Shown piece after piece: positions 4,800 to 21,908 of a stretch of 21,952 nt of DNA. The translations under genes were made by a program, and so were the position numbers. Source of the stretch: a virus; IMG/VR virus record IMGVR_UViG_3300042472_000523, positions 1 through 21,952 of that record, one strand, 5' to 3'. Below the pieces are notes generated by a model, which saw only the letters and a program-made list of their open reading frames with translations, was not told where the DNA came from and searched no databases. Each line of letters begins with the position of its first letter. The first letter of the stretch is position 1.

Positions 4800-5441
4800 A
4801 TGAAAATAGAACTATTAGAAATATTTGGCAATGATGAAATGGTAGTTAATGCCGCCAGAGTTAGCTATGGCAAGGACGCAACCAATTACACCAGTGGCGA
4901 GAACAAAAGCCTAATAAATTACCTTGCCTCACATGGTCACACTTCCCCCTTTCGCCATCCGCAAATCCAATACCGGATAACTTGCCCTATTTACGTTGAA
5001 CGGCAGTTGTTAAAGCACCAGGTAGGCTTATCTGCCAATAGTATCTCTGGTAGATACGTTGATTTTTCCGATACATACACTAAGGTAAATGTATGGAGAA
5101 AACAAAGTAAATCAAGTAAGCAAGGCAGCGAAGGTATGTTGTTTACCGATGTCGCAGAGAAGGCAAAGTTTATAGAGGAGCAACTTATTGACCATGCTAA
5201 AAGAGCGTATCAAACCTTAATAGAACTTGGAGTATCAAAGGAACAAGCGCGTACTATTTTACCGTTAAACTTAAATACTACCTTTATCTGGACTGGATCT
5301 CTCTACGCGTACATAAATATGTTTAAGCTACGCATTGACGCAAATGCCCAGGCAGAAACAAGATATATAGCCATGGAGATGCTGCATGAGTTAAAACTTA
5401 CAAATAAATTTATATTATCTTTAGAAGCATTTCACCTATGA
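4800..5441 (+). CDS. thyX: Flavin-dependent thymidylate synthase ThyX
   Basis: ThyX converts dUMP to dTMP using methylene-tetrahydrofolate, FAD and NADPH. The 213 residues match the family length. HTSPFRHPQIQYRI (47-60) and YVERQLLKHQ precede the signature KHQVGLSANSISGRY (72-86), the counterpart of RHRxxSxNxxSxRY with Lys and Gln replacing the two Arg and one extra residue, a form I know from phage ThyX. Ser78 is the likely counterpart of the conserved Ser. The C-terminal LPLNLNTTFIWTGSL, LR (177-178) and AQAETR (183-188) are typical FAD/dUMP-binding parts. Its stop overlaps the next start (ATGA), the first of three such overlaps in a nucleotide-metabolism operon. Confidence 0.93.
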   Translation: MKIELLEIFGNDEMVVNAARVSYGKDATNYTSGENKSLINYLASHGHTSPFRHPQIQYRITCPIYVERQLLKHQVGLSANSISGRYVDFSDTYTKVNVWRKQSKSSKQGSEGMLFTDVAEKAKFIEEQLIDHAKRAYQTLIELGVSKEQARTILPLNLNTTFIWTGSLYAYINMFKLRIDANAQAETRYIAMEMLHELKLTNKFILSLEAFHL

Positions 5442-5890
5442 ATAAACTTAATTTTTTAAAAACCTATATTGAACTTTACAAGTCAAATGAAATAATGAAT
5501 AAAGTTGAAAAATTAGAAACAAAAACAAACGAAGAAAGGGTTAAGGAGTTAATGATAGCTTCTGGAAGGAATCCTTGCATTGAAGAATATGGAGCATATA
5601 GGACAAATGAAAATAAACTTCGCTACGACCTTTGCCCAGCCATTGCGCAACGTGAGTATGCCAAAGTGTGGACACAAGGTTTAGAAAAGTATCCTGCCGG
5701 TAACTGGGAGAAAGGCTTTCCCTTTTCCGTTGTCATTGCCTCCGCTATGCGACACCTTGAAGCCATGCGACTTGGTGAAATGATAGACGCTGAAAGTGGG
5801 CTTTTGCATTCAGCGCACTTAATGGCAAATGCTGGAATGCTGACTGAATTTTATTTTACTCATCCAGAATTAAATGATTTACAAAAATGA
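5438..5890 (+). CDS. dATP/dGTP diphosphohydrolase-like protein (DUF5664 type)
   Basis: The 150-residue protein has the conserved core of the phage dATP/dGTP diphosphohydrolase N-terminal family: LRYDLCPAIAQREYAKVW (about 61-78), GLEKYPAGNWEKG (81-93), RHLEAMRLGEMIDAESGLLH (105-124) and AHLMANAG. Acidic and His residues here probably bind metal. A relative in vibriophage phiVC8 works in making 2-aminoadenine DNA, but the family also occurs in phages with normal DNA, and no purZ is seen here. The expected reaction is dNTP to dNMP plus pyrophosphate. The first 35 residues are a charged leader; ATG 5438 is chosen because it overlaps the thyX stop, although ATG 5495 is possible. Confidence 0.75.
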   Translation: MNKLNFLKTYIELYKSNEIMNKVEKLETKTNEERVKELMIASGRNPCIEEYGAYRTNENKLRYDLCPAIAQREYAKVWTQGLEKYPAGNWEKGFPFSVVIASAMRHLEAMRLGEMIDAESGLLHSAHLMANAGMLTEFYFTHPELNDLQK

Positions 5891-6090
5891 GCAAACAAAC
5901 GGCAGTTGAATGGGTAATTGAGCAATATATTAATAAAAATCGTGGACTTGAAGTATTTATGAAAGCAATACAAATGGAAAAGGAGCAGATAACGGAGGCT
6001 TTTAAAGAAGGAAATTTATATAATGGATGGGCATTAAAGCATGATCCAGAACAATATTACAACGAAACTTATAAAAAAATAGAAAAATGA
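5887..6090 (+). CDS. Small phage protein between nucleotide enzymes
   Basis: The 67-residue protein begins MSKQTAVEWVIEQYINKNRG, contains QMEKEQITEAFKEGNLYNGW and ends EQYYNETYKKIEK. This arrangement (TAVEWL..., MEKEQI, EQYYNETY) is a recurrent small-protein type in Bacteroidetes phages and genomes that I recognise, but it has no known function. It overlaps both neighbours by 4 bases (ATGA), so it is translated as part of the thyX-dcd operon. Confidence 0.75.
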   Translation: MSKQTAVEWVIEQYINKNRGLEVFMKAIQMEKEQITEAFKEGNLYNGWALKHDPEQYYNETYKKIEK

Positions 6091-6620
6091 TACTTACAGA
6101 CAAAACAATCATCGACGAAATCGCCTTAAAAAACATCGTCATTGAGCCATTAATAGAAGCAAACATTGGTACTAATAGTGTAGATTTAACACTAAGCAAC
6201 ACTTTGCTAATGTACACCGATACTATTCTTGACACCAGGAAGAAGAATGCTTATGCACCTTTTATTATACCGGAAGAAGGAATGATTTTAAGACCAAATG
6301 TTTTATACCTTGCCTCAACAGTAGAATATACGGAGACCTTGCGCCATGTACCAATTATACAAGGGAAATCAAGCCTTGGAAGATTAGGATTATTTGTCCA
6401 TGTAACGGCAGGTTTTGGAGATGTGAACTTTAAAGGACACTGGACGCTGGAGCTTGTTTGTGTACAGCCAGTCAAAATATATCCTTACATGAAGATTGCA
6501 CAAATCTGCTATCATGACATATCTGAAATGCCTTACACCGATTATGCCTCAAAAGCCGATGCCAAGTATAAAGACCAAGGCAAAGATCCAGTAGCAAGTA
6601 AAAACTATTTAAACAGATAA
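6087..6620 (+). CDS. dcd: dCTP deaminase
   Basis: The enzyme deaminates dCTP to dUTP, feeding dUMP to ThyX. The 177 residues show the dUTPase/Dcd trimer fold motifs: an N-terminal ILTDKTIIDEI, then NIGTNSVDLTL (26-36), the signature GKSSLGRLGLFVHVTAGF (93-110), and DVNFKGHWTLEL (112-123) with Glu122 as the likely catalytic acid. The C-terminal KYKDQGKDPVASK (160-172) is the usual nucleotide-closing tail. I see no separate dUTPase in the window, so this protein could be bifunctional or rely on the host enzyme. Its start overlaps the previous stop (ATGA). Together with ThyX and the diphosphohydrolase it shifts the dNTP pool towards dTTP. Confidence 0.9.
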   Translation: MILTDKTIIDEIALKNIVIEPLIEANIGTNSVDLTLSNTLLMYTDTILDTRKKNAYAPFIIPEEGMILRPNVLYLASTVEYTETLRHVPIIQGKSSLGRLGLFVHVTAGFGDVNFKGHWTLELVCVQPVKIYPYMKIAQICYHDISEMPYTDYASKADAKYKDQGKDPVASKNYLNR

Positions 6621-10957: not shown

Positions 10958-12886
10958 TTATTTTGTTACGAATACTTTAAATAATGCTGAAGCTGGGTCA
11001 ACTGTACCACTTGAATAATTATTAAATCTTACCGTCACCGTGTTTGCGGTTGATACCCATGCAGTATAACACGTATTTGCATTCACAGCACCATTGGGAA
11101 CGCCAAGGGACACAACGTCACCGTCTGCCGCGCCTGTTACTGTAATTGTTAAATCAGCTGATAACAAAGTTGTAGTTGATGGAAAATTCAATGTTGCTGA
11201 ACCTGTTAATCCGTGGTTGACTGTGTGTCTTGTTGTAGATGGGGAAAAGAAAAGATTTGTTCCATTAAATTCCATCGATCCAGCCTCAGCGGTTGTAAGA
11301 TTAACACCACTTGTAAATTTTAATGGTGCGGTGGATGCCGTTGCCGTGCCTGCTACAAGGTGAAGGCGTGCGGTAGGAGTGTTAACGGCTATACCTACAT
11401 TACCTGCTATGGTTGTTCCCGTGCCACTTGCACCTGTTATAAATAAAGCATTTTGATAAACACCTTGATATGAGCCATCTTGAACAGGTAAATCAAGGTA
11501 ACTGCCAATAACTACGTTGCGAGTGGCTGTAGACCTAATATTATCAGCTGCAAATGCACCTATCGCAATATTATCTGAGCCTGTCAATGATTCGCTGGGG
11601 TTATAAAGTGCACTTTCACCAGTAGCTATATTATTACTTCCTGTTGTATTACCTCGAAGTGCACTTACACCATTAGCAACATTTTTACTTCCTGTTGTAT
11701 TATTTCGAAGTGCACTTGAGCCATTAGCAACATTAAGATTTCCTGTTGTATTATTTAGAAGTGCATTTACACCATTAGCTATATTTTCAGAACCTGTTGT
11801 ATTATTTTGAAGTGCGCTTTGACCATTAGCAACATTACCATCTCCTGTTGTATTATTTAGAAGTGCGCCTGCACCATTAGCCACATTATTACTTCCTGTT
11901 GTATTAGCTCGAAGTGCACTTACACCATTAGCAACATTACTAATACCTTTTGTATTATTTTGAAGTGCGCTTTGACCATTTGCTACATTGTTACTTCCTG
12001 TTGTATTAGCTCGAAGTGCATTTACACCAATAGCTGCATTATTACTTCCTGTTGTATAAATTGCACCTCCACCAAAAGCAAATGTTGTGCTATTTGGCAT
12101 TCTTAATGAACTATACAAAGTTGCAGATCCATCGTCTTGCCCTGCAAATAAAACAGGCGCAGGATTTGATATTTGGACGACTGTAATATCGTCAAGATTT
12201 CCCGTAAATGATGAAGTAGTAAATCGAAAACCACCTGTTGCGATTGTTGGTAATAATAAAATTACGTTTGCCGTTGCATTTTGTGTTGGTAAAGCTAAAC
12301 TCACATTACCAAAAGCTACTGTTAATGTTCCAGCTGTATAACCTGTAAGCGTGTATGTAATTTCATACGCATTGCCACTTGTAACGGTTAATGAAGGCGT
12401 GTAAGTTAAATCTCCCGTTGCTGCCGTTGCTACTGCCTGTGTTCCGTTAAATGTCCAACCTGTGCCACGCGTCCAATTTGTCGTATCAGCTGCAAAGCCT
12501 TGCGTGGTGACAATCGCTGCCCTTGATGGCTCTTGACTGTTTTTTAAAATTAAATTTGAGGTTAATGTCTTAGCACCATTTACCGTTTGTGCGCCATAAG
12601 TGTTAACGTATGCTATGGATGTTGTATCACCGCCACCTGCCACGCTCCAAACATTTGTATTTATTTTATAATGAAAAAACCTGTTGTTTACCGTATCAAG
12701 AATGATGTACGCACTTGTATCGCTAAATGGTGTAATGACATTTGTGTCAGCCGCTAAGCCTCGATACACCAGCCCATCGGCAGTACTCTGTTCTCCGAGC
12801 GTTATCTTTTGATTACCATTGCTCGGGTACTGTGCCCATGCAAGACAAGGCAAAAGGAAGAGGAAGAGGAAAAGGAGTTGTTTCAT
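10958..12886 (-). CDS. Repeat-rich tail-fibre/adhesin-like protein with signal peptide
   Basis: The 642-residue protein starts with MKQLLFLFLFLLPCLAWAQ, a strong Sec signal with A-Q cleavage. Residues 28-86 (ITLGEQS... YRGLAADT ... VWSVAGG) resemble the N-terminal module of the 12897-16637 protein. Residues 130-240 form a jelly-roll-like module (TRGTGWTFNGTQ, LTVTSGNAYEI, SSFTGNLDDITVVQ) shared with the tail-tip protein. Residues 290-425 are eight 17-residue repeats of the AL-NNTTGS-NVANG type, like YadA-head beta rolls. A C-terminal fibre domain follows, with NVGIAVNTPTARLHLVAG and a SMEFNGTNLFFSP segment common in phage fibres. The likely role is host receptor binding, with trimer formation inferred. 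There is no S74 peptidase chaperone motif. Confidence 0.75.
   Translation of the reverse strand: MKQLLFLFLFLLPCLAWAQYPSNGNQKITLGEQSTADGLVYRGLAADTNVITPFSDTSAYIILDTVNNRFFHYKINTNVWSVAGGGDTTSIAYVNTYGAQTVNGAKTLTSNLILKNSQEPSRAAIVTTQGFAADTTNWTRGTGWTFNGTQAVATAATGDLTYTPSLTVTSGNAYEITYTLTGYTAGTLTVAFGNVSLALPTQNATANVILLLPTIATGGFRFTTSSFTGNLDDITVVQISNPAPVLFAGQDDGSATLYSSLRMPNSTTFAFGGGAIYTTGSNNAAIGVNALRANTTGSNNVANGQSALQNNTKGISNVANGVSALRANTTGSNNVANGAGALLNNTTGDGNVANGQSALQNNTTGSENIANGVNALLNNTTGNLNVANGSSALRNNTTGSKNVANGVSALRGNTTGSNNIATGESALYNPSESLTGSDNIAIGAFAADNIRSTATRNVVIGSYLDLPVQDGSYQGVYQNALFITGASGTGTTIAGNVGIAVNTPTARLHLVAGTATASTAPLKFTSGVNLTTAEAGSMEFNGTNLFFSPSTTRHTVNHGLTGSATLNFPSTTTLLSADLTITVTGAADGDVVSLGVPNGAVNANTCYTAWVSTANTVTVRFNNYSSGTVDPASALFKVFVTK
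11612..12019 (-). repeat. Eight 51-bp tandem repeats encoding 17-residue units
   Basis: Within the 642-residue protein, eight consecutive units of 17 codons cover residues 290-425. The consensus is AL-x-NNTTGS-x-NVANG-x-S. Units vary at three or four positions, while the DNA keeps recurrent blocks such as CATTAGC and GTTGTATTA. More degenerate copies flank both ends (GSNNAAIG, GSDNIAIG). The phase matches the codon frame, so this is a protein repeat, not a CRISPR array. Confidence 0.9.
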
Positions 12887-12896
12887 GTTTATGTTT

Positions 12897-15800
12897 TTAA
12901 TTTCTTTGCATTATATGCCAATTTGTACCATCTGCAACTAATGTACACCATTGAGGGGTAACGTTACCAGCGCCTAAAATTGCAGTACCAGCCGAACCAC
13001 CGTTAAAAGGTATTACATTTGATGCCGTGCTGACAATTGTTCCACTTGCAAGGTTTTTAATCATGTACATTCTTCCATTAGTTGCAGTCGTTAAATCTAA
13101 TTGTGTTGTTAAAGATCCTCCTGTATTTACAAGAGATACTCTATTACTTGTAAGTGTAGCAACTGTACCTGCAGTTACTTCAATGAATAGATAACCAACC
13201 GCCAAAGTAGTTCTTGCCACCGATGCACTTTCCGCACCAGTTCCACCGTTGGCAATAGGCAATGTTCCCGAAAATCTTCCAGACCTCCAATAAGGATTTA
13301 GCATTGTAGCCGTGTCGCCACGTTCAATGTACGGCGCTAACATTGTTGTAGTATCCGCACTTGTAAGAACATTGTTGCCGTTTTCGGTTATATCACTTTG
13401 AACAGCAAGTGTACTTGACAAAGTTGTTGGTTTATGAATAGTAACATTTCCCGTTTGTCTTACAATTGAAATTGCCAATTCATCGCCACTTGGGTCGGCT
13501 GAGAATGAATCGCGCATTACAAATTCTAATCTATCACTCGGGGAATTGTATTGTATTTTTGCACCAAATTGGACGTCGTTTTCATTTCTTGCATTTGTTT
13601 CGTAAAATAATAACCGCGGCACATTATTTGAACTTGCATCTAACATTATATTTTTACCCTGACCTAAAGTCAATGAGGCAAAAGGAGTAGTATTAATCCC
13701 AATATTTCCGCTGCTTTCTTGAATGACAGAATTACCTAATGTAGATGTGCCTGTAAATAATGGCAAAGTGTTTGTTGTTCCTGTGCCAGTAACTGGGTTG
13801 GTTAATGTGTTTTGCTTTGCCGCAAATCTGGAAGTAAGGTTAAGGCTTAAAGTATCGGACTGCGTAAATAAAAATGAAGTATCAGCTTGTAATGTGCCAC
13901 CTAAAGTTATATTTAATCCAGAACCTAAAGTAAATCTACCAACAGAATTTACTCCACTAGTTGTGTTTAATCCAAGTATTTGAGTTGGTATATCAGTTGT
14001 AGTATTTAGAAATAATAGGGAATCAATAGTCACACGATTTTTAAAAACTTTACTACCACCAAATAATTGTGAAGTTGTGGTTACTATACCGCTTTGAGTT
14101 TGAGATGCAGATAAAATAGATATAGTTCTATCTCCCGTCAAATTTCCTCCACCTTGTAATGGTGCGGTTGTTCCTATGGTGATTGTGCTATTTGCTGGAG
14201 TAAATCCTAAAGCACTTTGTTTATTATTGAATGTAGTCCAATCCGTTGAGGTTAAATACCCATTTCTTCCACTTGTTGCACTTAATAATTCAATGATTGG
14301 AGTGGTAGTTGTATTTAAAATAGATAAAGGATTTCCACTTGTTGCGGAAACCGTTACACTTGTTACAGTACCATTACCACTTCCTACTCCTGCTCCTATG
14401 GCTGTACGAAAGTCAGTAGCAGATAAAGCCGAAACACTATTGTCAACATTAAACCTTGGGAAAGTAATGGCTGAAGGATTAGTTAATGTAAATATTGACT
14501 GTCCAATAGTCGAACCTCCTAAACTTGTTCGACCTGTAGATGCAATTAAATCAGTGCTACCTCCATCCCATTTTAGTCTGTCGGTAAATGCGGTATTCCA
14601 ATTACTCGAATTATTTGTGATTGAAGATGCCCAAGTTGTGCCCGTAGATAGTGCAATGCCTGCCTCTGGATAGATTGGATTTCCTCCTTGAGCCGAACCG
14701 ACCGAACCAATACCGCTAACCGTTGCAACCGTATAATTAGCACCTACTTTAAAAGATGTCGAAACAATGGTAATTTTATTTGTGTCAGTTAAATTATACT
14801 GGTCATTGTTTAAAAGTTGTCCATTCCTAAATACCAAAATATAAGCCTTTAATTGGATAGGAAATTTAGGCGTTATTGTCCACGTCAAAACACTTGATAA
14901 GGCTGGTTGATATTCTTGTTTTAAAATCTTTATGGTATCGCCACCAATGGCAACGTTTATTGAATCCTGTAACCTTGCGTATATGGTTGACGTATCTAAA
15001 CGCAAAGTTCCCGTCGTTGTTATTGTTCCTCCAAGCAAGCCGAAGCCTGAACCTACACTTGTAACCGTGCCCGTTCCTTTTGCATCTATTCTATTTGATA
15101 ATGAAGCCGTGTCAGCTGAGTTTAATTTTGATGCAAATCTGGAAGTAAGGTTTAATAAAGTCGTATCGGTTAATTCCATTAATACAGAAAGGTCAGCCGA
15201 TACTGTGCCCGTGGTTGTTATTGGATTAGGATTAACTATTATTCCCGTTCCGCCTGAAATTGAAGTAAGGCTTCCAGATCCTCCACCGGAACCAGCACCA
15301 CCACCACGGGGAAAAATTACCGTGTAATTATCGTTAACTTTAAATGATGAAGCTGAAATAACCACGCTTGTTGACGTTGGTACGGTGTATTGAGAAGGTA
15401 ATAAGATTTGTCCGTTGCGATACACTTGAATAAAGGTAACTCCCCCAGGAATTAAAGTGTCTGTTTGTGTCCAAGTTAAAGTTGACGTTGTTACGCCTGT
15501 GGTATAATCCTGTCTTGCATATAATCGACCAGTTGTATCTGCGTATGCTTTAGTTGCGTAGTTGGCTAACATTGCAGCCGTGTCACTTACTAAAAGTGTT
15601 GGCGTTGTGTCTCGCCATAATCCACTTTTATAATATAAACTTGCGTTTGCAGAAGGTGACGTGATTGCAACATCATGAAGCTCATGCAATGCATAACCCG
15701 ATGCCACACGAATTGAAATTGTACCATTGTTTGAAGATGAATTTATACAAAAGCCAATAGGCATATCAATGTTTGGAGCAATAGGCTCAACATCTGTCCA

Positions 15801-16637
15801 AACACCAGCAGTAGTTGGCGAAGGATAAAGAATAGCACCAGCCGCAAATGTATCGGTGTTAACTTGTCTTATCTTGCCAAAGGAAATAACATAGCCATCT
15901 TCTCCATTAGTTAAATCGTGTGCGGTTATTCCTAATAGCAATTTTGCATCTATTGTGCCATTTGCTATGAACTTTGCAACTGTTATTCTGCCACTTGCTC
16001 CAACCGTGCCATTAGCATAAACAAGACTTCCTTTTGTAATGGTTGAGCCTGTCTGATTCTTGACAAGCCAAAAGTTTTTAAATCCTATTTCATTGGGCAC
16101 AGCATCATACATTCCCAGTACAACCGTACCTAACTCATAATCCCATCGCATTTTAGCCGTGTCAACATTGTTAGGGGAAACACTTGTATCAAAAAATAAT
16201 GAGTCAACAGGCTGCGTAAATGATCCGCCACCTACTAAAGATGCCCATGCGCCTTGTTTCCAAACATATATACTTCCCGTTAAACTATCTAAGACTAAAT
16301 AGGCTTTTACATTTTTATCTGCATAGCTTGTCGGCTTAGTTACTGTATCAGAAGCAAGACCTCTCCAAACCAACCCGTTTCCAGAAGTATTAAAACCAAG
16401 TCTTTGCTTGTTGCCTGTTATTGGGTAGGGTATGGAATCAATAGAGGCATAAGATAAGCCTGCCACCAAAAGAAATGCAATAACAAGTCCTTGCCGTTTG
16501 TTGCCTACTTTGTCAATAGCTTTGCCGATAAACTTGCGCCCAATGCCCATTATTAATTCATTGGCTAAAACCTTGGCAATGTTTCCAATGGCTTTTAAAA
16601 ATTTCCTTTCTTTCTTTGGTGCTTTTATCTCTTCCAT
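12897..16637 (-). CDS. Giant tail-fibre-like protein with internal membrane/export segment
   Basis: The 1246-residue protein opens with a basic amphipathic region (1-48), then a hydrophobic helix GLVIAFLLVAGLSYAS (50-65) that looks like an uncleaved or late signal. The module at 78-138 resembles the N-terminus of the 10958-12886 protein. Residues about 185-325 form a beta domain known from phage fibres (FWLVKNQTGSTITKGSLVYA ... LGITAHDLTNGEDG ... SGYALHELHDV). Two copies of an LTWT...RNGQ...QY module lie at 376-442 and 572-641. Long Thr/Ser/Gly/Asn-rich beta repeats follow, and the end (LVADGTNWHIMQRN) is a common fibre C-terminus. Probably a host-contact fibre. It overlaps the previous gene by one base. 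Confidence 0.75.
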   Translation of the reverse strand: MEEIKAPKKERKFLKAIGNIAKVLANELIMGIGRKFIGKAIDKVGNKRQGLVIAFLLVAGLSYASIDSIPYPITGNKQRLGFNTSGNGLVWRGLASDTVTKPTSYADKNVKAYLVLDSLTGSIYVWKQGAWASLVGGGSFTQPVDSLFFDTSVSPNNVDTAKMRWDYELGTVVLGMYDAVPNEIGFKNFWLVKNQTGSTITKGSLVYANGTVGASGRITVAKFIANGTIDAKLLLGITAHDLTNGEDGYVISFGKIRQVNTDTFAAGAILYPSPTTAGVWTDVEPIAPNIDMPIGFCINSSSNNGTISIRVASGYALHELHDVAITSPSANASLYYKSGLWRDTTPTLLVSDTAAMLANYATKAYADTTGRLYARQDYTTGVTTSTLTWTQTDTLIPGGVTFIQVYRNGQILLPSQYTVPTSTSVVISASSFKVNDNYTVIFPRGGGAGSGGGSGSLTSISGGTGIIVNPNPITTTGTVSADLSVLMELTDTTLLNLTSRFASKLNSADTASLSNRIDAKGTGTVTSVGSGFGLLGGTITTTGTLRLDTSTIYARLQDSINVAIGGDTIKILKQEYQPALSSVLTWTITPKFPIQLKAYILVFRNGQLLNNDQYNLTDTNKITIVSTSFKVGANYTVATVSGIGSVGSAQGGNPIYPEAGIALSTGTTWASSITNNSSNWNTAFTDRLKWDGGSTDLIASTGRTSLGGSTIGQSIFTLTNPSAITFPRFNVDNSVSALSATDFRTAIGAGVGSGNGTVTSVTVSATSGNPLSILNTTTTPIIELLSATSGRNGYLTSTDWTTFNNKQSALGFTPANSTITIGTTAPLQGGGNLTGDRTISILSASQTQSGIVTTTSQLFGGSKVFKNRVTIDSLLFLNTTTDIPTQILGLNTTSGVNSVGRFTLGSGLNITLGGTLQADTSFLFTQSDTLSLNLTSRFAAKQNTLTNPVTGTGTTNTLPLFTGTSTLGNSVIQESSGNIGINTTPFASLTLGQGKNIMLDASSNNVPRLLFYETNARNENDVQFGAKIQYNSPSDRLEFVMRDSFSADPSGDELAISIVRQTGNVTIHKPTTLSSTLAVQSDITENGNNVLTSADTTTMLAPYIERGDTATMLNPYWRSGRFSGTLPIANGGTGAESASVARTTLAVGYLFIEVTAGTVATLTSNRVSLVNTGGSLTTQLDLTTATNGRMYMIKNLASGTIVSTASNVIPFNGGSAGTAILGAGNVTPQWCTLVADGTNWHIMQRN

Positions 16638-17008
16638 TATATTATGTTTATTGCAAATACAATGTAATTACTTCCATCGTAATGTGTGTTAATATCTATC
16701 GTAATAGTAGCAGGTGCCGTTATTACATATTGACTGTCTATTAATTTCTGACCATTTTGGTAAACATGGATAGCAGCATTTAAATTAGTTACTGGTAAAA
16801 CTCCATTATTTTGTGTCCAGGTTAAAACATTGGATGAAGCTGCAATAAATTCTTGATTGAATATTGATACGGCAGAGCCATTTACTGTAACATTATTTAT
16901 TGTTTCTGTGACATTATTATTTACTACACCGCCACTGCCTGCATTGTTGGCTACTTCGTTAAAATCACGAGGTTTTGATAATACTGTTCTTTCTGTATAG
17001 TTAGGCAT
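16637..17008 (-). CDS. Small tail protein with fibre-type module
   Basis: The 123-residue protein begins MPNYTERTVLSKPRDFNEVA, followed by a Gly/Asn linker with Val-Thr repeats (NNVTETINNVTVNG). Residues 49-123 are a copy of the LTWT...NGQ...QY module found twice in the next large protein (SNVLTWTQN, HVYQNGQKLIDSQYVI, then a beta end). Charge and size suggest an adaptor joining the tail tip to fibres. It overlaps the hub gene by 8 bases and the giant fibre gene by one base, so all three are translationally linked. Confidence 0.7.
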   Translation of the reverse strand: MPNYTERTVLSKPRDFNEVANNAGSGGVVNNNVTETINNVTVNGSAVSIFNQEFIAASSNVLTWTQNNGVLPVTNLNAAIHVYQNGQKLIDSQYVITAPATITIDINTHYDGSNYIVFAINII

Positions 17009-19223
17009 CCAATTCTATTTTAAAGTAATCACCTTGCCAAATCTCTGTTTTTAAATCAAAACTACCTCTTTCAAAAACGTAATATCCAGATGAATATTCT
17101 ATGACCTTGTGAGGAAGATATGGATTGTCAACTGATAAATTTTGGAATGGCATATCAACCATGCGCAACTTTGGTGTAAGTTGTCCGCGTATTACTTCAT
17201 TTACTAATAATTGTGTGACATTGTTAAAGCCTGATCCGCTGCTAACATCCCATGAGCTGCTATTTTCATAGGTGCCAGATTCTAATACTTTTAATCCTCC
17301 ATCCGTTGTTTTACTCGGCCCATCGCCAAGGTATGTGTCAAGGCTAAATATAGTGGATGATTTATCGTCATTGTCAGAGCCATATTCAAGGATGTCACTT
17401 TGCCCAGAGACTGCACCAGTAGGAAGAAATTCAAGATAATTACTGCTTAATAAATATGATATACTAAAATTACCAGACACATTTGTTCCTGCCTCATTTC
17501 TCATATTTTTTAAGCGCATCTCCCATACATACTCTGCACTCTCTGGAATGTCTAAGGTATCAAATGTGATAGTTTTATAAGCAACAAAAGCAGCATCTGC
17601 TGTTATTGTTTCCGTATTAAACTCATATTCGTAAAATGTATTTTCCCAACTTGCAGCTTCTAACTGAAAGTTGAATCCACTTGTGTAATTTACATTTCTT
17701 TTTAAATACTTATTTTCCTGCTTTACCTGTAATGATTTAATTTTGCCAGTAAAACCTGGAGATGATAAACTATCTAATTGTAATGTATCTGTGTTAGTTG
17801 ATAAAATTACATAGTCATAATCACCACTTTCTGTAATTGTTTTTGTAACACCACCTAAACGTAGTCTAAGGCTACCACTATTTTCAATATCAACTTTAAT
17901 TTTAACATAATACTTTCTACCAGATGTAACTGTAAAAGTAGTGTAGTATGCTACCGTTGCTATTATTGTACCTTCAAGTATTCCATTATTAATAAACCAA
18001 CCGCTGCCCAATGTCCAGTTAGCATCGGCAAAACCTTGCAATGGAAAGCTATTAATAATAGATGCTACCTTTACAGCAAATACAAATTGAAAAGGCTCAA
18101 AGTTTACAGGATTTAAAGCCTGGGCATAAAAACCAAGTATTCCTGTGTATGATAATCTTGCATCTGCATTTGTAGCGTCTAATGTCGGAGTGATAGTTGT
18201 TATTGGTGTGGCATTAGTAGCATAGTTATATTCTACTCCGGCTAATAAGTTTTGTTTAGCAAAGTGATTGTATCTAACAACTACATTTTTTAGTGCAGGA
18301 TAATATGTCCATTTACCTCCGCTTAATCTCATTAAATCACTTCCTGGTAAATTAGTCTGTATATTAGACATGGTAAAATCAAAAGTAAATGTACCAGATG
18401 CCTGTACGCCTAATGCACTATATTTAAAATATCTGTGAGCTGAAGGATTTCTTGTGTATTCATTAACTTGTATAAACCAATATTGATTACCAGAAAATAT
18501 TAATCTTGCGCCAAAGGTTTGACATATCTTTTTTAAAACATCGTAGCAACTTTGATATATGTAGTTGTTTTTTGTATCCTTATGATAAAATGCCCTATGC
18601 TGTATTACTGTCAATAATGCGTAATCATTATCAGCATTGTAGGCTGTAGTATTCTCATTCCAATTAAAAACAGTGTGCAGCACTGGCAGACTATTTGCCA
18701 CCAATTCACTCTGTACAAAATCTAATTGATTAAGGCAGTTTAAAATATGTTGTACTACTGTGTCTTGTCCATTGTAAGGACCTACTGCACTTTTGTAATC
18801 CAATGTTTTTAGCCATCCTAAACCATCAATGGCAGATATTTGAGCAACATAACCAATAGACAAAGGGATGTCTTCAAATTGAACTAAATCTGTAACTATA
18901 TAACCATACCAATTAAATGATACTGTTGTATTGTCATCTTCGTACGCAGTTAAATGCATTGTAAACCTACCCTCAACTGCTAATCCAATATCAAGAAGTA
19001 AAGTCTGTAAATCGTTATTATTTATAAGTAATGATAAATTGCAGGATGATCCGATAATAGGAGTAAATCTTTCAGCTCCTTGTTGGCTTTCGCTATCGTA
19101 TTGTAATGACAGGCTAATAGTATCAAATGAATATGTCATGCCCGAAAAGACATTGTCTTTTATGGCAACATTAATCTTTCTACCTTTCTCATTATATACA
19201 GTCGTTTCAAACCTTACAGCCAT
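17001..19223 (-). CDS. Large tail-tip/hub (Tal-like) protein with binding module
   Basis: The 740-residue protein sits directly after the tape measure gene, where siphoviruses encode the distal tail/hub protein. N-terminal residues 1-135 are beta-rich (VRFETTVYNEKGRKINVAI, FNWYGYIVTDLVQF). A region at about 225-256 (YDVLKKICQTFGARLIFSGN, QYWFIQVNEY) is a pattern I associate with Bacteroidetes phage tail-tip proteins. Residues 397-502 (ANWTLGSGWFINNGILEG, FTVTSGRKYYVKIKV, SPGFTGKIKSLQVKQ) are a jelly-roll-like, carbohydrate-binding-type module shared with the fibre protein. No peptidase or lysin motif is visible. Function inferred from gene order and composition. Confidence 0.7.
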   Translation of the reverse strand: MAVRFETTVYNEKGRKINVAIKDNVFSGMTYSFDTISLSLQYDSESQQGAERFTPIIGSSCNLSLLINNNDLQTLLLDIGLAVEGRFTMHLTAYEDDNTTVSFNWYGYIVTDLVQFEDIPLSIGYVAQISAIDGLGWLKTLDYKSAVGPYNGQDTVVQHILNCLNQLDFVQSELVANSLPVLHTVFNWNENTTAYNADNDYALLTVIQHRAFYHKDTKNNYIYQSCYDVLKKICQTFGARLIFSGNQYWFIQVNEYTRNPSAHRYFKYSALGVQASGTFTFDFTMSNIQTNLPGSDLMRLSGGKWTYYPALKNVVVRYNHFAKQNLLAGVEYNYATNATPITTITPTLDATNADARLSYTGILGFYAQALNPVNFEPFQFVFAVKVASIINSFPLQGFADANWTLGSGWFINNGILEGTIIATVAYYTTFTVTSGRKYYVKIKVDIENSGSLRLRLGGVTKTITESGDYDYVILSTNTDTLQLDSLSSPGFTGKIKSLQVKQENKYLKRNVNYTSGFNFQLEAASWENTFYEYEFNTETITADAAFVAYKTITFDTLDIPESAEYVWEMRLKNMRNEAGTNVSGNFSISYLLSSNYLEFLPTGAVSGQSDILEYGSDNDDKSSTIFSLDTYLGDGPSKTTDGGLKVLESGTYENSSSWDVSSGSGFNNVTQLLVNEVIRGQLTPKLRMVDMPFQNLSVDNPYLPHKVIEYSSGYYVFERGSFDLKTEIWQGDYFKIELDA

Positions 19224-21262
19224 TATTGTATTCTACTTAATCCCTTTTGAGACCTATTTAACAATATAATTAAATCATTTCCGCTTATCCTTGTCTCCAG
19301 TGTGCCACCTACGCCCATGTCTCCCATCATTGATTTTAACTTTGATAGAGGAGCAATTACTTCCGGATCTACACGACTGTTCCTGTTATCTCCAACAGTT
19401 GCCATTGTGGGCCCAAATGCCAAGCCGCCTTCAGCAAGTTTGGGAGCACCAATCTTCATTATTAATGACCTTGCTACACCACCAGCAGCAGCAGCAATAG
19501 CAGGAGCAATAGCCACCATAAAAGGTGATAATGGTAAAGATGCTAATGCTTTTGCTACATACATTCTAATAAAATTAGCAATTATATCAGCAATGCTTTT
19601 TCGTACAGCTGCTGCAAGTTCCTTCATACTTTCAAATCCACTTGCAGCCAATTCACCAAAACTTAATATACTGGCAGCAATAATTTGTTGACCTTGCCCT
19701 AATGAATCATAGGCACTTTTTGCCACTGGCGTAATTTTAGTAAAAGAATTAGCTACATCTTCGTTTGTTTGTTTTAATCTTTCGTTTGCAGCTGATATAC
19801 TTTCTAATTTATCTGGAAGTAAATCTAAAGTCGGTAAAAGACCTATAACACCTAAACCTGCACCCATTGATGCAGCAGAACCTGCTCCACCTGCACCTGC
19901 ACCTGTTGGAGTAGTAGCACTTGGTTCTGTCGGCAAAGTTGGCACAGTAATACCTCCACCGCCACCAGTTGCTTTTGCACCAGTTGTAAATAATGAAGCA
20001 AGTTTGCCTTTTAAACTATCAACTGTATCTCCAATACTTTTAAACTCTGTAGCTACTATTCTTTGTTCCTTTTGATAAGATGTTAAACCATCAAGATTAA
20101 ATAAATTTAATCCTAATGCTTTCTGTAGATAATCAATATTTTTTAAAACATTAGCTACTCCTTCCATTACGGAGTTTTTAATGTTTATCCATATATTTTT
20201 AAATCTATCTGTGAAGGCTTGCCAGTTATCATAAACATATAATGCAATAGCACCAATAGCAGCAATTAAGGCAGTAACTACTAAAATCATTGGATTGGCA
20301 GCTAAATAGCTAAATGCTTTACTTATATTTCCTATTGCTTGTACTATTAATTTTGAGGCTCCTGCCAAAGCACCGTATGTACTTATTAATTTTCCTACTA
20401 TAAATATAATGGGCCCGATAGATGCAGCCACTAAAGCAGCCTTTACGATAAAGCCTTGTGTCTCTGGATTAAGGGCTTTAAATCCATCTACTAATCCTTG
20501 AATATATTTACTTAAACTTTCTGCAACGGCTTGTAGATTTAATGATTCATTTATAGCCTTGCCAAATTCTGCTAAAGAGGCAGTTACATTATCTTTTAAA
20601 TTATCAAAAGTATTACCTAATCCACCTTGCGCCCTTTCTAACTTTGCTAATGCAGATACAGAGCGCGTTATAAATTCCTCACTACTTACACCTATTGCTC
20701 TTATTCCTTCCGCAGTCACCGTTCCAAATTCCTCTTTCATCACTCTGGCAAACTCCGGTAGCCTTTCTTTTATCTGATTAAGGTCTTCCTGTGTAACTTT
20801 ACCAACCGCGCTTATCTGACTTAAAGCTAATGTAACTCCGCTAAACTGTTCTGCACCTCCTCCCGATCTCGCTACGGCATTACCAAACTGTGTTATAGTT
20901 TCCCTTGCAGCATCGGCAGACATTCCTACTGATTGTAAAGAGGCAGAAGCCTGTACAACTTGAGGCAATGCAAGACCAGGATTCTCTGCAACTTTACGCA
21001 ACTTATCCAACTCTTCCTTTGCTCCTTCACTTGTACCCATAATGGCAATCAATCCATTCTCCAACTTTTCCATGTCGGCAAATGCTTTCAATGAAGCTGC
21101 ACCGACACCAAGCAATGGCAGAGTTATAGACTGCGTCATAGTGCTGCCGATAGATTGCATTTGTCCGCCAAATCTTGACATCGCACGCTCAACCTTGCCA
21201 AGTTCTTTCTCAAGGTTGCTAACATCAATGCCAAGTTTTAAATTCAGTTTACCTATTGCCAT
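19223..21262 (-). CDS. Tail tape measure protein
   Basis: The protein sets tail length and passes through the tail tube during DNA delivery. The 679 residues begin GKLNLKLGIDVSNLEKELGK and show the tape-measure N-terminal domain (SLKAFADMEKLENGLIAIMG at 57-76, ALSQISAVGKVTQEDLNQIK and RLPEFARVM at 146-175). Two hydrophobic segments (271-292, 323-345) and a Gly/Thr/Ala/Pro linker (about 430-470) follow. The C-terminal KLAEGGLAFGPTMATVGDN with DPEVIAPLSKL is a common tape-measure end. Such a length suggests a tail near 100 nm, using about 0.15 nm per residue. It follows the frameshifted chaperone frame by 2 bases, the classical order. Confidence 0.92.
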   Translation of the reverse strand: MAIGKLNLKLGIDVSNLEKELGKVERAMSRFGGQMQSIGSTMTQSITLPLLGVGAASLKAFADMEKLENGLIAIMGTSEGAKEELDKLRKVAENPGLALPQVVQASASLQSVGMSADAARETITQFGNAVARSGGGAEQFSGVTLALSQISAVGKVTQEDLNQIKERLPEFARVMKEEFGTVTAEGIRAIGVSSEEFITRSVSALAKLERAQGGLGNTFDNLKDNVTASLAEFGKAINESLNLQAVAESLSKYIQGLVDGFKALNPETQGFIVKAALVAASIGPIIFIVGKLISTYGALAGASKLIVQAIGNISKAFSYLAANPMILVVTALIAAIGAIALYVYDNWQAFTDRFKNIWINIKNSVMEGVANVLKNIDYLQKALGLNLFNLDGLTSYQKEQRIVATEFKSIGDTVDSLKGKLASLFTTGAKATGGGGGITVPTLPTEPSATTPTGAGAGGAGSAASMGAGLGVIGLLPTLDLLPDKLESISAANERLKQTNEDVANSFTKITPVAKSAYDSLGQGQQIIAASILSFGELAASGFESMKELAAAVRKSIADIIANFIRMYVAKALASLPLSPFMVAIAPAIAAAAGGVARSLIMKIGAPKLAEGGLAFGPTMATVGDNRNSRVDPEVIAPLSKLKSMMGDMGVGGTLETRISGNDLIILLNRSQKGLSRIQ

Positions 21263-21264
21263 TA

Positions 21265-21603
21265 TTACTCTTTATCCCATTTGTCAAAAATTGACTTGTC
21301 AACTTCTGTCAAACTTCTTTTAGTTGGTTTTGGATTATCATTCTCCCATGGAAACTCAATTAAATCTTTAGGCTTAATTGATTTGCCTTTTGCCGTATGA
21401 ACATTCAATAAAAGTGTTGTTTGCCACCTGGCACGTTCCCACTCAAATTGCTGCTCTATTTCAAATTGATTATTATAACCTTGCATAGCTATAATAACCT
21501 CTCTTAGTGTCATCTCATAGTATTGCGGAGGATGGAATCTAAGGACTCCAAAACAAAATCTTTCGATGTAATCAAGTGTTAACTCACCTCCTCCGCTATC
21601 TCG
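21265..21603 (-). CDS. Tail assembly chaperone T part, expressed by -1 frameshift
   Basis: This frame has no convincing start of its own. It is open from 21603 to the stop at 21265 (112 residues after the shift). The stretch before the first ATG (21513) encodes LTLDYIERFCFGVLRFHPPQ followed by YYE, a conserved-looking start of gpT-type chaperones, so the ATG at 21513 is internal. The rest reads MTLREVIIAMQGYNNQFEIE, then WERARWQTTLLLN and a basic C-terminus. In lambda-like phages gpG and gpGT bind the tape measure before tail assembly; the same is expected here. The fusion with the upstream part would be 214 residues. Confidence 0.8.
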   Translation of the reverse strand, partial: RDSGGGELTLDYIERFCFGVLRFHPPQYYEMTLREVIIAMQGYNNQFEIEQQFEWERARWQTTLLLNVHTAKGKSIKPKDLIEFPWENDNPKPTKRSLTEVDKSIFDKWDKE

Positions 21604-21908
21604 TTTTTTCTTTCTGGATCTTCTGGTACTGAAATCTCATTTGTTATCAGCTCCGTTATCCGGTTTATCCCTCCCTTATCCAAATCTACTAAGTCGCAAA
21701 ACTTTTCTAAGGTATATGGACACTTCTCCCCTTTCGCCTTGTAACCTGCCTGTACACCTGCAAAGGCAAGTTCAAGAGCAAATAGGAGGTCTTCGCCAAG
21801 GAGGGAGAGGTCACTTAATTTAAGGTTCCTCTCCCTTAAAAATGTACCTAAAACGAACATACCAAACTTAACTGGTATGTCCGCATTAGCTATTTTTATT
21901 GTTTTCAT
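21579..21908 (-). CDS. Tail assembly chaperone G part
   Basis: The 109-residue unshifted product begins MKTIKIANADIPVKFGMFVL, contains RERNLKLSDLSLLGEDLLFA and a helical LELAFAGVQAGYKAKGE, and ends in an acidic tail. This matches the small G-type chaperone seen before tape measure genes. A slippery heptamer lies near its 3' end (codons 100-102), so most ribosomes would end at 21579 and a minority would continue into the T frame. The gene starts 18 bases after a possible upstream gene. Confidence 0.82.
   Translation of the reverse strand: MKTIKIANADIPVKFGMFVLGTFLRERNLKLSDLSLLGEDLLFALELAFAGVQAGYKAKGEKCPYTLEKFCDLVDLDKGGINRITELITNEISVPEDPERKNEIAEEVS
21603..21609 (-). other. -1 programmed frameshift site A AAA AAC
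   Basis: In the minus-strand transcript the G frame reads AGA AAA AAC, giving the heptamer A AAA AAC in the correct X XXY YYZ phase. A -1 shift moves ribosomes into the T frame (CGA GAT AGC ...), which stays open to 21265. The G stop is 7 codons further on. No strong stem-loop directly after the site is obvious; GGAGGAGG follows 10 bases downstream. Confidence 0.8.

Follow-up and report, generated by a model that had tools for sequence, protein, structure and literature searches.

Phage lambda uses the heptamer G_GGA_AAG as its own slip site. The lambda gpG and gpGT proteins are the reference for tail assembly chaperones made by translational frameshifting, as described in the studies cited in PMC5009743 (Levin 1993; Xu 2004, 2013, 2014). 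In the haloarchaeal virus HCTV-2, the g-t pair uses A_AAA_AAC; in E. coli, this heptamer slips far less than A_AAA_AAG, and in mammalian systems it ranks with the most slippery ones (PMC5009743). Its behaviour in the host of the phage studied here may differ from either. Related pairs also exist in Cellulophaga phage phi39:1 (gp19/gp20) and Bacteroides phage F4 (orfs 39/38), in both of which they are annotated as two separate hypothetical proteins. Here, we describe a G/T pair on a 21,952-nt stretch of viral DNA (IMG/VR record IMGVR_UViG_3300042472_000523, positions 1 to 21,952; hereafter the window). The phage group to which it belongs was the subject of no report in our search of open-licence papers.

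Organization and identity of the G and T frames

G (21579..21908, minus strand, 109 aa) is the first open reading frame of the window's minus strand and represents the zero frame, which would give the normal product. The −1 frame, open from 21636 to 21265 on the same strand, lies between G and the tape measure gene and overlaps G. Near the end of G, the heptamer A_AAA_AAC (21603..21609, minus strand) begins at the third position of a codon and is thus in phase with the gene. The T frame extends from the slip site to its stop (21265..21609, minus strand) and provides the C-terminal 112 residues of a G-T fusion of 102 + 112 = 214 residues. Past the slip site, this frame runs through 30 codons, including the stretch between the G stop and the first ATG (21514..21578, minus strand), before that ATG is reached at 21513; neither ATG nor GTG nor TTG occurs in it up to this position, and the open reading frame starting there encodes 82 aa. 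The initial annotation had proposed an in-phase A_AAA_AAC in a minus-strand G frame, 30 open codons ahead of an 82-residue ATG product and a 214-residue fusion, all of which we could reproduce. It had also warned that ATG-based gene calling would truncate T, and exactly this is illustrated by gp20 of phi39:1, whose annotated start is an internal ATG.

The two small overlapping frames sit immediately upstream of the tape measure gene (19223..21262, minus strand), which was recognized by both a PHROG (E 5e-26) and Pfam TMP_3 (E 2.8e-20). In L026, a close relative, a tail terminator gene is followed by the genes for the major tail protein, G, T and the tape measure protein. The position of the major tail protein gene, which lies outside the window, is taken from this relative (2285-2710; phrog_1407, E 1.9e-17, and Pfam Phage_tail_2), where G follows at 2729. 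The lambda-like order of G, GT and tape measure noted earlier is found in the window as well as in the relative.

The window's own G had no direct family match in PHROG or Pfam. Its relatives, however, matched the tail protein family phrog_2115 (8/21), the tail chaperone family phrog_183 (2) and Pfam Phage_TAC_12 (1). The predicted fold of G (pLDDT 81) resembles predicted phage proteins including annotated tail assembly chaperones, one of them being A0A8S5M2L5 (E 2.9e-4, TM 0.75; annotated as 'Tail assembly chaperone protein'); the PDB held no sequence match for G or T and no solved structure matching the fold of G. T belongs to phrog_16333, a family of unknown function (E 5.5e-16), with the match starting 14 residues ahead of the first ATG, and the same family was matched by 21/21 relatives tested. 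Against Pfam PF09550 (Phage_TAC_6), T scores 15.0 bits, below the curated cut-off of 23.4, and the T proteins of 3/21 relatives match this family at E <= 0.01 (best 3.6e-5). In phi39:1, gp14-18 and gp21-22 were identified as virion proteins by mass spectrometry and gp19 (G) and gp20 (T) are unmarked, which fits chaperones leaving the finished tail. Altogether, family matches, fold and gene order suggest that the pair acts as a tail assembly chaperone. The host is probably a member of the Bacteroidota, as judged from its relatives, which are phages of Cellulophaga and Bacteroides and a provirus of the Prevotellaceae; the latter (L155, in a Prevotellaceae MAG) was the single, distant provirus found in the genome collection.

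Conservation of the slip site

Among the near relatives obtained by T-protein searches of IMG/VR (62 distinct sequences), A_AAA_AAC is in phase in all that span the site. The heptamer is missing from L113 alone, whose contig starts past the site. Overall, the slip site is kept across hundreds of relatives, and the heptamer stays constant while its codon context varies by clade (AGA AAA AAC, CAA AAA AAC or GAA AAA AAC). For more distant comparisons, an alignment query yielded 508 relatives, and sequences were fetched for the 80 best. In 33/33 G/T pairs examined, the short frame overlap carries an in-phase X_XXY_YYZ heptamer, against 3.2 expected from how often such heptamers occur further upstream in these G frames, although many of the 33 pairs are related to one another and do not count as 33 independent events. 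The heptamers A_AAA_AAG, A_AAA_AAA, G_GGA_AAG, G_GGA_AAC and C_CCA_AAC occur here, always with the same frame relation. Conservation of the heptamer, which the initial annotation had put forward as a check, is thus seen directly in the near clade and in the form of in-phase substitutes further away. The bare string is ordinary in this A-rich window, where RAAAAAAC was seen 3 times against 7 expected from shuffling; judged from these comparisons, it is the phase, place and conservation of the heptamer that are not due to chance.

A conserved stem downstream of the slip site

The initial annotation had considered the site unusual in lacking a stimulatory structure, a view that we had to revise. 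Folding of the 67 nt after the heptamer indeed gave nothing (z +0.71), in agreement with the emptiness described at short range, but a fold of 107 nt (-26.7 kcal/mol, z -2.4) contains a conserved stem, GCGGAGGA/UCCUCCGC. This stem had been missed because its partner strand lies about 70 nt away, outside the 60 nt considered. It starts 6 nt past the heptamer, after the spacer GAGATA (21597..21602), with the 5' arm GCGGAGG (21590..21596) pairing with CCUCCGC, encoded by CCTCCGC at 21525..21531 (all minus strand); A at 21589 and T at 21532 add an eighth pair. The 3' arm is located in the region coding for T only (codons CCT CCG CAA), and the 7-8 bp encloses a loop of 56-58 nt. The 6-nt spacer followed by a stem fits a −1 frameshift signal with a downstream stimulator, for which a spacer of about 6-9 nt before a stem or pseudoknot has been quoted (PMC3835772).

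The combination of heptamer and stem is present in at least 120 viral DNA stretches. All 267 pattern matches in the fetched loci, many of which overlap, are exactly 85 nt long, so that the total length of the motif is constant, and shuffled versions of the window yielded zero matches. Protein searches, which do not select for the stem, supplied 24 distinct cores; in these, 168/168 cells pair, and sliding the partner by 1-3 columns lowers this to 43-71%. As an extension to 10 pairs fails in 9-11/24 sequences at the added pairs, we claim seven pairs (eight in the window).

One possible explanation for this conservation is that the frameshift is real and the stem merely a by-product of coding constraints that does not stimulate slippage. 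Six of the seven pairs never vary and only one covaries, synonymous shuffles give an equally good helix in 0.2-22% of cases, and some distant relatives are without a stable structure past the site. On the other hand, in every near relative the helix sits at the same place behind a 6-nt spacer, and no longer helix is conserved across 118 distinct sequences. Position 4 speaks against a by-product as well: in 75 distinct cores it is A-U (50), G-C (17) or G-U (8) and never A-C, a combination that the search pattern permitted, even though the exchanges alter the encoded residue in both arms (GGA/GAA and CCG/TCG). In addition, the codons of the 3' arm are invariably CCT plus CCG or TCG, and the latter two are rare in the phage of the window (11% of Pro and 5% of Ser codons, respectively). 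We therefore regard a mere by-product as rather unlikely and a stimulatory role of the stem in frameshifting as probable; the invariant pairs, the kinship of the sequences and the shuffle results keep us from a stronger statement. A search for a pseudoknot between the loop and downstream sequence revealed only a conserved 6-bp GU-rich helix (51-56 with 125-130 from the heptamer), which we judged weak, and an Rfam scan of the region gave chance-level matches only.

Local folds of the distant relatives are mixed, with clear hairpins in L186, L209, L220 and L221 and none in L163, L170 and L173. In a sister clade (L074, 3028-3097; L153, 3001-3070), the G frame is 13 codons longer than that of the window, so that the dual-coding region covers much more of the stem loop. 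A large marine group (L161, L173, L205 and relatives) has a slip site abutting the stop codon (AAA AAG GGA AAG TAG) and is mostly without stable downstream structure; here, ribosomes may be paused by the stop codon itself. In L207, L208, L214 and L227, the sequence right past A_AAA_AAG forms a strong local hairpin (GCCAAGAAG and a matching arm similar to CTTCTTGGC), a separate candidate stimulator.

Selection on the T frame and alternative origins of the fusion

A different explanation would be that T is a separate gene, expressed by reinitiation past the G stop from the ATG at 21513 or from a non-standard start, with the heptamer being incidental. Indeed, near relatives have an ATG at this codon in 58/58 cases, and a purine run (GGAGGAGGTGAG) is located immediately ahead of the G stop. 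The stretch between the G stop and this ATG, however, evolves as a protein: in the 62 distinct near relatives its pN/pS is 0.124, compared to 0.125 in the remaining T, and the two alternative frames give 1.28 and 1.35. Moreover, 60/62 of these sequences contain no ATG, GTG or TTG there, the N-terminus of T can be aligned with relatives of about 30% identity, and helices are predicted with high confidence for T residues 12-22 and 27-32. What the initial annotation had called a conserved-looking segment ahead of the ATG is thus under purifying selection, which indicates that the T frame is translated despite having no usual start codon. It had named a conserved separate start at 21513 as one observation that would speak against a fusion; in the distant relatives the methionine is unconserved, and it is the in-phase heptamers that are retained in all 33 pairs. 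Taken together, a separately initiated T is very unlikely.

Slippage could also occur at the level of transcription, with RNA polymerase producing fused-frame transcripts at the A run. Runs of nine A in the distant L083, L084 and L155 would be compatible with this, but the run in the window comprises only six, and relatives with G_GGA_AAG or C_CCA_AAC manage without a long run. Furthermore, the phase rule and a downstream stem are required only by ribosomal slippage. The polymerase is an even less likely source of the fusion than a separate T gene. Finally, the chance of an assembly or sequencing error, or of a defunct gene disrupted by a frameshift, is negligible, as the arrangement is repeated in at least 120 viral contig stretches from many samples and the region is under purifying selection; the relatives had already refuted this candidate, and we found no supporting point for it.

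Proposed mechanism

A programmed −1 ribosomal frameshift of the lambda G/GT type, the reading already favoured by the initial annotation, therefore best explains the conserved phase of the heptamer, the selection on a start-less T, the synteny and the fold, and we assign it a probability of roughly 0.94. From these patterns, we infer the following course of events. Most ribosomes would finish G at its stop and release the 109-aa chaperone. In a minority, the tRNA-Lys and tRNA-Asn positioned on AAA and AAC would each re-pair with AAA one base further back; these ribosomes would continue in T to produce the 214-aa G-T fusion. The stem probably pauses the ribosome and could thereby set the slip rate. 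By analogy to lambda, the G domain would coat the tape measure protein and the major tail protein would be recruited by the T domain, with neither G nor G-T remaining in the finished virion.

Other genes of the window

Downstream of the tape measure gene, three genes (12897-16637, 17001-19223 and 16637-17008, minus strand) encode proteins of 1246, 740 and 123 aa, respectively. None had a PHROG or Pfam match at E <= 0.1, although tail tip or receptor-binding parts would be expected here. The gene at 10958-12886, which matches virion structural and tail spike families, contains a tandem repeat of 51 bp (17 codons) at 11606-12057 with about nine copies and 79% matches, likely a variable tail fibre stalk. 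On the other strand, a nucleotide metabolism block (4800-6620, plus strand) comprises a thymidylate synthase, a match to dATP/dGTP pyrophosphohydrolase and a dCTP deaminase. The middle gene of this block also matches an endolysin-labelled PHROG, so that one of the two labels is probably wrong.

Comparison with known systems

The locus resembles lambda G/GT in having an overlapping pair of frames between the major tail protein and tape measure genes, a −1 slip heptamer near the end of G and a T that would be made in the fusion only. It differs in its heptamer, A_AAA_AAC, with the G_GGA_AAG type of lambda occurring in distant relatives, in a T that scores 15.1 bits against the Pfam family of lambda T (PF06223, Phage_tail_T) and thus below the curated cut-off of 25.9 bits, and in the conserved downstream stem. 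HCTV-2 shares the heptamer and the g-t pair, but infects a host of a different domain. In phi39:1 and F4, the T proteins are homologous and the gene order is the same, with A_AAA_AAA in phase.

PHROG 16333, the family matched by T, is annotated neither as a chaperone nor as a frameshift product; this widespread, unnamed family could now be assigned a function, namely that of the T portion in tail assembly chaperones. The natural series of slip sites together with one conserved stem offers test material for the setting of frameshift rates outside E. coli. At about even odds, the observations combine into a large and abundant environmental phage group, probably of Bacteroidota, in which A_AAA_AAC is paired with a long-range stem in coding sequence as a dedicated stimulator of a sort unseen in other G/T pairs. 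This stem would enclose a loop of nearly 60 nt, perhaps forming a three-way junction with GGAGU/AUUCC inside, and would be preserved by paired amino-acid changes (Gly-Pro versus Glu-Ser). In conclusion, the G/T pair itself is an ordinary but well-supported instance of the known lambda G/GT frameshift, and the conserved RNA stem is probably a new stimulator.
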